Source: an uncultured Oscillospiraceae bacterium (GTDB taxonomy: Bacteria; Bacillota; Clostridia; Oscillospirales; Oscillospiraceae). Taken from it: a DNA stretch of 64,000 nt. Below the pieces are notes generated by a model, which saw nothing but the letters and a program-made list of their open reading frames with translations, made no database searches and was not told the DNA's origin. Position numbers and translations under genes: made by a program. Positions 4,930 to 6,875 of this stretch are shown in pieces. Numbering within the stretch: position 1 is the stretch's first letter; each line of letters starts with the position of its first letter. The stretch covers positions 1 through 64,000 of the forward strand of contig CAKTSA010000004.1 of NCBI GenBank assembly GCA_934597585.1. Direction: 5' to 3'.

Positions 4930-5736
4930 ATGATGAATAAGACTGCTGAGCGCGTTGTGACGCTGGACAAGGGCCGTGTGGACGTTTATACTGAGAACGG
5001 TATTACCCTGTATGCCTATCAGACCTGTGATCCCATCGACAACGAGGTGTTTGTGCTGGCCAGGAATGGCCGGGGCGTGGTGATCGAGCTGCCCTGCTTC
5101 TATGACAACATCCGGGAGCTGACGGATTTCCTGGCGGCGGAGGGCATTCGCGTAGAGGGCAAGCTAGTGGCCTATCACGCGGCGGGTGCTTCCTTCCTGC
5201 CGGAGGTGCCTGCCTACGGCACGGCGTCCTCTGTGGCCTACAACACCACAGGCGGCGGCGCGGCGCTGGTGGCGAATTTCAAGAGCGCCTTTGGCGACAG
5301 CTTTGACGCGGGACTGTGCGCCGTGGACCACGTGATGGAGGAGGGCGAGGCGGAGATCGCCGGTATCCGCTTTGTGGTGAAGCCCAATGCCGAGGCCTAT
5401 GACCTGGAGATCCCGGAGATGAACTGCGTGTATACCCACATGATGGGCCACGACTGCCACTCCATCGTGGCGGGCTGCCCCCACGCCGACGGGATCATCT
5501 CCCAGCTGAACTACTACATCCGCAGAGGCTTTGGTCTGGTGCTGACTTCCCACTACACGCCGGAGGATCTGAAGGACGCGCAGACCAAGGTGACGTATCT
5601 GACGGCGCTGAAGGAGATCGCACTGACCTGCGGCAGCGCCGACGAGATGCGGGCGAAGGTACAGGCACAGTATCCCGATTACAGCGGGATGAATTATCTG
5701 GACATGACGGTGGGCTTTTTCTTCCCTGGGAAGTAA
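4930..5736 (+). CDS. MBL-fold-like protein without the canonical metal motif
   Basis: A 268-residue cytosolic protein with the strand pattern of a metallo-beta-lactamase fold (VDVYTENGITLYAYQT, then NEVFVLARNGRGVVIELPCF). The HxHxDH motif is missing: the matching place reads YHAAGASF, so the usual binuclear metal site looks degenerate. Later histidines (THMMGHDCHS) might form another site. Function is unknown. Two adjacent ATGs (4930, 4933) sit behind GGAGG; both have acceptable spacing and I give the longer form. It leads the operon with the macrodomain remnant and SirTM, opposite the HxlR gene. Confidence 0.7.
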   Translation: MMNKTAERVVTLDKGRVDVYTENGITLYAYQTCDPIDNEVFVLARNGRGVVIELPCFYDNIRELTDFLAAEGIRVEGKLVAYHAAGASFLPEVPAYGTASSVAYNTTGGGAALVANFKSAFGDSFDAGLCAVDHVMEEGEAEIAGIRFVVKPNAEAYDLEIPEMNCVYTHMMGHDCHSIVAGCPHADGIISQLNYYIRRGFGLVLTSHYTPEDLKDAQTKVTYLTALKEIALTCGSADEMRAKVQAQYPDYSGMNYLDMTVGFFFPGK

Positions 5737-5755: not shown

Positions 5756-6040
5756 ATGACTCAGGCGGAGCGGCGGCTGTTTCTGATCCGGTCGCTATTG
5801 AAGGAGAACGCGGCATACCGGGACCTGCGGGTCCCGGCGGACGCGGACGGGCAGCGGCAGCTGCTGCGGAGCCTGATGAACGTCCGGGCGCCGGAAACGA
5901 CAAGTGAGGCGTTTCTGACGGTGCAGGACGACTATCTGCGGCGGTACAAGACGGAGACGGGAAGCGGAATGAAGGTGATTTTCAATGTTTTCAAGGATAC
6001 GGACCGGGAGATCTATGAGAGATTGCTCCGCAAAGCTTGA
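5756..6040 (+). CDS. Internally deleted macrodomain (protein-ADP-ribose hydrolase) remnant
   Basis: 94 residues. Residues 1-62 (through LLRSLMNV and AFLTVQDDYLRR) match the N-terminal arm of zinc-type protein-ADP-ribose hydrolases found next to SirTM. Residues 64-94 (YKTETGSGMKVIFNVFKDTD onward) match the extreme C-terminus of the same family. The family is normally about 260 residues, so the catalytic macrodomain core and zinc-binding residues are gone, joined in frame near base 5940. The ribosome site AAAGGAGCGCAGG is intact. The product cannot be an active hydrolase. It overlaps the SirTM start by 26 bp, so it may survive for translational coupling. The homology call is from memory of the family. 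Confidence 0.7.
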   Translation: MTQAERRLFLIRSLLKENAAYRDLRVPADADGQRQLLRSLMNVRAPETTSEAFLTVQDDYLRRYKTETGSGMKVIFNVFKDTDREIYERLLRKA

Positions 6041-6875
6041 GCGGCTGCGGACGGCGCTCCGTGACGCGGAGGCGGTGGTCGTCGGCGCGGGAGCCGGACT
6101 GTCCGCCGCGGCGGGATTTACCTACAGCGGGGAGCGGTTTGGACGGTATTTCTCCGATTTCGCGGAGAAATACGGCATTGGCGATATGTATTCCGGCGGA
6201 TTTTACCCCTTTTCCACCAAAGAGGAATTCTGGGCGTATTGGAGCCGGTATATCCTGGTCAACCGCTATCAGGACGCGCCGAAGCCGGTGTATGACGAGC
6301 TTCTGGCACTGGTGGCGGACAAGGACTACTTTGTGATCACCACCAATGTGGACCACTGCTTCCAGAAGGAGGGATTTGATAAAAAGCGGCTGTTCTATAC
6401 CCAGGGGGACTACGGGCTGTTTCAGTGCAGCGGGCCCTGCTGCCAGGAGACGTTTGACAACGAGGCGGCCATACGGGAGATGGCGGCGCGGCAGGAGAGA
6501 ATGCGGATCCCGCCTGAGCTTCTGCCCCGCTGTCCTCACTGCGGCAGGCCTATGACCATGAACCTGCGGTGCGACGACACTTTCGTCCAGGACGATGGGT
6601 GGCACGCCGCGGCGGTGCGGTATGAAAATTTCCTGCGGACCCGGGCGGGGCAGAGGGTGCTCTTTTGGGAGCTGGGGGTGGGGTATAACACCCCGGGCAT
6701 CATCAAGTATCCCTTCTGGCAGATGACGGCGGGGAATCCGAAGGCCATCTATGCCTGCATCAACCAGGGCCAGGCGGCCTGCCCCCGGGAGATCGAAGGG
6801 CAGGCGGTCTGCATTGATGGGGATATCGGGGACGCGGTGCGGGCCCTGCGGGAAAAAGAAGGGACCTCCGGGTGA
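6015..6875 (+). CDS. Class M sirtuin (SirTM), protein ADP-ribosyltransferase
   Basis: 286 residues. GAGAGLSAAAGF is the NAD-binding start; TTNVDHCFQ gives the conserved Asn-Asp; the QGDYGLFQC motif replaces the catalytic His of deacetylase sirtuins by Gln, the hallmark of class M. A zinc ribbon (CSGPCC and CPHC) and ELGVGYNTPGIIKYPF follow. SirTMs ADP-ribosylate lipoylated GcvH-L, a mark removed by the operonic macrodomain, which here is destroyed. No GcvH-L or LplA2 gene is nearby. The ATG at 6015 lies inside the remnant gene with GGGAG before it. A terminator hairpin (6861-6895) spans its stop. Confidence 0.85.
   Translation: MRDCSAKLERLRTALRDAEAVVVGAGAGLSAAAGFTYSGERFGRYFSDFAEKYGIGDMYSGGFYPFSTKEEFWAYWSRYILVNRYQDAPKPVYDELLALVADKDYFVITTNVDHCFQKEGFDKKRLFYTQGDYGLFQCSGPCCQETFDNEAAIREMAARQERMRIPPELLPRCPHCGRPMTMNLRCDDTFVQDDGWHAAAVRYENFLRTRAGQRVLFWELGVGYNTPGIIKYPFWQMTAGNPKAIYACINQGQAACPREIEGQAVCIDGDIGDAVRALREKEGTSG

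Follow-up and report, generated by a model that had tools for sequence, protein, structure and literature searches.

In bacteria, the genes for class M sirtuins (SirTM) and for macrodomain proteins have been described as adjacent members of one operon (PMC4518038). The SirTM/Zn-Macro pair may occur alone, in an extended operon or as a fusion, and some of the genes partly overlap (PMC11490716). Class M sirtuins are recognised by a QG where other sirtuins have the catalytic HG and by the motif GVGx[NT]TP, and mutation of Asn118, Gln137 or Arg192 strongly lowered the activity of SpySirTM (PMC4518038). The Zn-Macro family is characterised by the motifs NAAN, Cx4HxC (the Zn-loop) and Dx3H, and what SirTM modifies outside the extended operon is stated there to be unknown (PMC11490716). 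In the published picture the sirtuin (the writer) and the macrodomain (the eraser) form an operon-bound ON/OFF pair. A mainly open-access literature search on SirTM/macrodomain, on loss or orphan terms and on Clostridia operons yielded no title about partners that are unlinked or have been deleted.

The locus studied here lies in a 64-kb stretch of DNA from an uncultured Oscillospiraceae bacterium (the window, i.e. the whole stretch that was analysed). On its forward strand an ORF of 94 codons (5756..6040), identified by family, structure and profile matches as the remnant of a gene for a SirTM-linked Zn-Macro ADP-ribose hydrolase, directly precedes a SirTM gene. The NCBIfam family of protein-ADP-ribose hydrolases, NF003163, matches two separate stretches of the ORF with 1e-15, which does not reach the curated whole-protein cut-off. 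The solved Zn-Macros 8rsi, 5kiv and 8rsl each match it in two stretches as well, an N-terminal arm and a C-terminal tail (residues 16-72 and 237-268 of 5kiv), the individual stretches being weak, with 6.7e-07 as the best. On a macrodomain profile that we built from 121 sequences of related loci, the stub occupies positions 1-68 and 227-256 and the gap between them is empty. The earlier note had proposed from the letters alone that the gene joins the two ends of the eraser and lacks its catalytic core. Alignment with the full-length macrodomain neighbours bears this out, both halves matching the Zn-Macro family and the tail comprising about 32 residues.

Compared with the full-length macrodomain of the related locus L067 (259 aa), residues 63-227 are missing, i.e. 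165 codons. The NAAN motif, the Zn-loop and the Dx3H (Asp/His) dyad are all absent from the stub and all fall within the deleted part (in L067: VNAAN at 99, CYVPNHAC at 109 and DNCIH at 118). Residues 1-62 (5756..5941, forward strand) correspond to the N-terminal three-helix bundle of the Zn-Macros, which is predicted to be kept on the basis of the profile match, an AlphaFold2 model and a fold match. The following 32 codons and the stop (5942..6040, same strand) form the C-terminal tail and also provide the start region for SirTM. Read against L067, the catalytic core of the eraser is removed by an in-frame deletion of 495 bases. The two parts meet at TGCGG(CGG) (5937..5944, forward strand), a junction defined from the window sequence and the codons of relatives. 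Many of the 19 relatives listed have TAT CTG CGG on the N-terminal side and GTG CGG on the C-terminal side, in equal phase. The deletion probably ran between short in-phase TGCGG matches, the repeat length being deduced from these codons of the relatives. Since both copies of TGCGG have the same codon phase, a slip between them would by itself yield an in-frame deletion. The closest SirTM proteins in the genome collections are 75-76% identical to that of the window, and a search in the genera of G005, G134 and G263 found no closer one. Among the best 120 of the 7988 matches to the L067 macrodomain, the best was 77% identical to the stub in the arm and 73% in the tail; a partial protein, P0061, has a 33-residue tail identical to that of the stub. 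Nineteen bases upstream of the remnant ends a gene of no assigned family (268 aa; 4930..5736, forward strand; without a Pfam match at E ≤1), which possibly shares its transcript.

The SirTM gene itself, for a putative ADP-ribosyltransferase (5985..6875, forward strand; 296 aa from the conserved start as placed by sequence comparison) has an open frame, and its product matches the S. pyogenes SirTM 5a3a at 1.3e-67. It carries QGDYG at residues 140-144 and GVGYNTP at 231, and N121, Q140 and R195, numbered from the ATG at 5985, correspond to Asn118, Gln137 and Arg192 of SpySirTM. Judged by these residues, and in agreement with the earlier note, SirTM is an intact writer that has kept its catalytic residues, with the remnant as the only piece of a Zn-Macro gene linked to it. 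The dN/dS between the window SirTM and that of L067 is 0.14. Between relatives it is 0.07-0.25 in eight pairs that lack an upstream macrodomain and 0.05-0.18 in five linked pairs. SirTM stays under purifying selection even in loci without an upstream macrodomain.

The family sample consisted of 90 loci from the 88 better-scoring of 138 matching genomes, from which four contig-end loci were dropped. In 67 of the remaining 86 loci a full macrodomain is found directly upstream of SirTM, whereas it is lacking in 19. A macrodomain with one internal stop (L184) was counted as full, and loci with the macrodomain just downstream (L226) or about 1 kb upstream (L102) as lacking one directly upstream. 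Mapped on a quick SirTM tree (170 proteins), the presence of a full upstream macrodomain changes 27 times, losses and gains counted alike, and at least eight of these changes are on well-supported branches. Change in the adjacent eraser is recurrent. The window SirTM sits in a supported set of six, five of which are linked loci, which suggests that the loss of its eraser is probably recent.

The gene arrangement around SirTM varies in other ways. SirTM and macrodomain genes are convergent in L142-L144, SirTM precedes the macrodomain in L269, and in L279 the macrodomain is near a divergent sirtuin. A second SirTM group (L116-L128, L131, L132, L210, L223, L228 and L230) has a longer open frame of 309-410 aa; here the macrodomain match stops 32-241 bases short of the first matched SirTM residue, without overlap. 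Tandem or broken additional SirTM copies lie beside SirTM in L213 and L230. By eye, the upstream macrodomain is replaced in nine loci (L002, L021, L030, L039, L050, L051, L056, L071 and L073) by a flavin/ferredoxin-like gene, the products of which start like MDAQTCLKKLEYVGVLAFATVD and end Cys-rich, and a nitroreductase-like gene is found upstream of SirTM in L020, L035 and L044. Both kinds of neighbour would fit a redox link.

The reading of the window that we consider likely is that of an adjacent-eraser scar, of which the tail has been kept for the SirTM start, while the hydrolase is most likely provided in trans. The 495-base deletion has removed the core of the adjacent Zn-Macro and spared its last 32 codons; a Zn-Macro encoded elsewhere would supply the hydrolase, so that ADP-ribosylation would remain reversible with the writer-eraser operon taken apart. 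The argument for supply in trans comes from the relatives. When 41 genomes without a directly upstream eraser were searched in full, 28 proved to carry a full-length Zn-Macro elsewhere (14 of 21 and 14 of 20 in the two genome collections); six had Zn-Macro pieces at contig ends and seven, all drafts, no usable Zn-Macro. Four of the 28 copies lie near a SirTM or SirTM-like gene (G528, G117, G032 and G255). The flanks fetched around the other 24, which mostly extend 1.5-1.9 kb to either side, contain no SirTM; two of these copies share a contig with SirTM (G541, 3.2 kb away; G343, 8.2 kb away) and two are on contigs that end less than 200 bases downstream of the copy (G386 and G422).

Such copies are rare in genomes where the pair is linked: a second full-length Zn-Macro was found in one of the 42 linked genomes of the family sample (first control, cut-off 1e-32) and in five of 28 further linked genomes (second control, cut-off 1e-25). 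All six adjoin a SirTM, leaving SirTM-less copies in 0 of 70. Among 36 genomes without SirTM at the cut-off, one has a full-length Zn-Macro, which is near a divergent sirtuin (G012). Arm-less macrodomain matches, which occurred in G050 and in five of the 42 linked genomes, did not count as Zn-Macros. By Fisher's test the difference between 28/41 and 1/42 has a p of 4e-11 and that between 24/41 and 0/70 one of 1e-13, in both cases for genomes that are related to each other. Of five independent pairs on supported branches, three to four agree and none goes against the association (p 0.125-0.25, with low power). Common ancestry thus accounts for part of the association between an unlinked SirTM and an eraser elsewhere. 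The macrodomains found elsewhere showed no conserved partner in the 26 loci compared; the sole neighbour family in at least three of them, by eye, was nitroreductase-like (three loci). With 28 of the 41 genomes carrying an eraser elsewhere, supply in trans is likelier than absence, and we judge it quite probable that the genome of the window, too, encodes a trans-acting eraser.

The alternative that survives best is that this genome lacks any Zn-Macro, in which case the mark set by SirTM would be irreversible, and would be diluted by growth or cleared by an unrelated hydrolase. The earlier note took such one-way ADP-ribosylation as the default unless another macrodomain exists. A six-frame scan of the 64-kb window revealed no other macrodomain at E <1, as this alternative would have it, and the purifying selection on SirTM in loci without an upstream macrodomain is in line with it. 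Some relatives, moreover, show no usable Zn-Macro. Among the seven genomes mentioned above, G525 has a degraded one, G226, G094, G260 and G540 have arm-less macrodomains only, and G166 and G537 have no match; nor was a usable Zn-Macro found at a cut-off of 1e-25 in the draft G571 (locus L047). Eleven relatives have, like the window, kept the tail in front of SirTM. Five of these have a full-length copy elsewhere (L020, L029, L038, L055 and L057) and three have contig-end pieces (L039, L046 and L073); the three with none or degraded pieces only (L005, L047 and L175) agree with a one-way system. However, the Zn-Macro-negative genomes are drafts, and the full-length copies in 28 of 41 such genomes, with contig-end pieces in six more, argue against one-way modification as the default; we consider it unlikely for the window. 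Should no Zn-Macro be left, the mark itself rather than its removal would carry the function, for G571, G525, G094, G537 and others alike, a prospect that we likewise regard as rather doubtful.

Returning to the eraser scar with its hydrolase in trans, the form of the scar can be understood from the way in which the start of SirTM is embedded in the macrodomain gene. A putative Shine-Dalgarno sequence, AAGGTG (5972..5977, forward strand), lies inside the macrodomain tail, seven bases before the ATG at 5985, and many relatives have GGAGGTG at the matching position. We compared codon use in SirTM loci (80 from one genome collection and further ones from a second), after removal of duplicate genes. 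Among the full-length macrodomain genes, 108 overlap SirTM; 101 of these use AAT for the Asn of the FNVF site and none uses AAC, the rest having GAT (3), GTG (2), TGT (1) and GTT (1) at this codon. At the other Asn sites of the overlapping genes the ratio is 351 AAT to 608 AAC (n=959; Fisher's test versus the FNVF site, 3e-41). An AAT or GAT that is followed by a Val codon creates an ATG in the SirTM frame. The preference for AAT disappears in genes that do not overlap SirTM. Where there is a gap instead of an overlap (21 genes), the FNVF site has 11 AAT to 9 AAC. Convergent pairs have 0 to 2, and the macrodomains found elsewhere have 7 AAT, 12 AAC and 3 GAC (n=22, omitting L234 and L250, which are beside a SirTM, and L239 and L245, which have no motif). 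Two macrodomain genes of the fetched loci that do not adjoin SirTM also have AAT (2 to 0), against a bias caused by the overlap.

Of 110 linked loci, 100 have an ATG with a Shine-Dalgarno sequence exactly 16 codons ahead of a conserved site in SirTM, and of the 41 loci that lack an upstream macrodomain, 36 have a start with such a sequence. The alternative start at 6015 is preceded by GGAG, but its position is not common to the relatives. The codon use of the relatives and the position of the ribosome site indicate that the stub and SirTM probably overlap by 56 bases, rather than by the 26 bp that the earlier note derived from the start at 6015. As in the relatives, then, the last 32 codons of the macrodomain appear to hold the Shine-Dalgarno sequence of SirTM, the ATG at 5985 and about the first 18 codons in another frame. 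With these signals inside the tail, any deletion that spares SirTM must spare the tail. Because the reading frame is preserved across the deletion, ribosomes on the stub would still terminate within the SirTM start region, so that translational coupling could continue.

The eleven tail-bearing relatives have about 22-40 of the last macrodomain codons before SirTM, without the core. In five the tail was found by the profile (L029, L039, L046, L047 and L073) and in six by eye from translations (L005, L020, L038, L055, L057 and L175), those of L038 and L175 being degenerate; L027, with a tail and a piece of a second macrodomain, was left out of this set. An N-terminal arm was seen in none of nine of the eleven. 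Of the other two, L047 begins at a contig end and is uninformative on the arm, and in L046 about eight N-terminal codons remain, in a different frame from the tail that follows. A deletion of this kind can thus also be out of frame, so that in-frame retention need not reflect selection. In L005 a stop just ahead of the tail makes it untranslatable as part of a longer protein. Together with the tail-only relatives this implies that the SirTM start region is what must stay, not the stub protein. The suggestion that the remnant persists for translation of SirTM is therefore supported for its last codons, with the Shine-Dalgarno sequence, the start and the first codons, but not for the remnant as a whole, since nine of the eleven tail-bearing relatives show no arm.

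The arm could nevertheless be thought to form, together with the tail, a functional mini-protein that might, for instance, bind or regulate SirTM or a second eraser. An AlphaFold2 model of the stub (34 natural sequences; mean pLDDT 80.9) predicts helices at residues 3-17, 30-43, 51-68 and 81-93, with block pLDDT values of 78-94 over residues 1-70 and weak ones beyond residue 70. In a fold comparison the model comes closest to the three-helix bundle of 8rsj, the Zn-Macro of M. oralis; 68 columns superpose with an rmsd of about 1 A, and the E value is 0.007, not below 0.001. The predicted retention of the bundle in the first 62 residues would suit a mini-protein, as would the coding-type base use at codon position 3 of the stub (GC 0.80); such a bundle model is, however, expected anyway, because the alignment included full-length kin. 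Similar proteins exist. P0001, with 94 residues and from a different assembly source, is 98% identical to the stub and has the identical join. P0002/P0003, P0004, P0005, P0007 and P0027 are short macrodomain proteins with an internal deletion and both ends in frame, of which P0002/P0003, P0004 and P0027 combine arm and tail (some lie on long contigs, P0003 on 12 contigs, the longest of 125,827 bases), and P0040 is a further short form that begins inside the arm. The search behind P0002-P0040 recovers in-frame forms only. On the other side, no arm is seen in the nine tail-bearing relatives, and the two residues in which P0001 and the stub differ are neighbours, both in the bundle region. Removal of the bundle costs the Zn-Macro enzyme its zinc, and the Zn-loop that the bundle steadies is absent here; the available text of that report gives no function for the bundle alone (PMC11490716). 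We consider a working mini-protein very unlikely, and the kept three-helix bundle is probably a passenger.

That the join is an assembly or sequencing artefact, in a genome that really carries the full gene, is extremely improbable: the short repeat at the junction could have been collapsed, but the matched stretch is 5-8 bases, and the second assembly, with its two nearby residue differences, has the identical join, which argues that the deletion is real. The words used in assembly are usually far longer than 5-8 bases.

In gut Clostridia the SirTM/macrodomain pair is often apart, and where it has separated a full eraser usually persists elsewhere in the genome. Since translation of the writer starts at a site encoded within the 3' end of the eraser gene, the scar that the operon leaves behind can be recognised. 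The separated pairs offer a natural experiment on whether the eraser has to be produced beside the writer, and they single out genomes that could show if a writer can do without an eraser.

Finally, the locus can be set beside the systems described so far. It resembles the minimal SirTM/Zn-Macro operon (Rack 2015, PMC4518038; Ariza 2024, PMC11490716) in the QG, the GVGx[NT]TP motif and the catalytic Asn, Gln and Arg of its SirTM, in the macrodomain-derived gene directly upstream on the same strand, and in having no GcvH-L or LplA2 nearby. Unlike that operon as described there, the eraser is reduced here to bundle and tail, and a full eraser is lacking directly upstream both here and in 19 of the 86 SirTM loci of the family sample. 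With the extended operon of S. aureus and S. pyogenes it shares the SirTM class, but GcvH-L and LplA2 were not found beside the window SirTM: no GcvH or LplA domain was detected in 44 window ORFs, which include the genes flanking the pair (cut-off 1e-8 in part; 12 of the 55 listed ORFs lay outside the scan). The start of the downstream gene inside the upstream gene is a feature shared with translationally coupled overlapping gene pairs (compare PMC6728339 and PMC12548453). Unlike such pairs in general, the one described here has an overlap of about 56 bases and a downstream gene with a Shine-Dalgarno sequence of its own, and its overlap appears to survive as a scar after the loss of the upstream enzyme.
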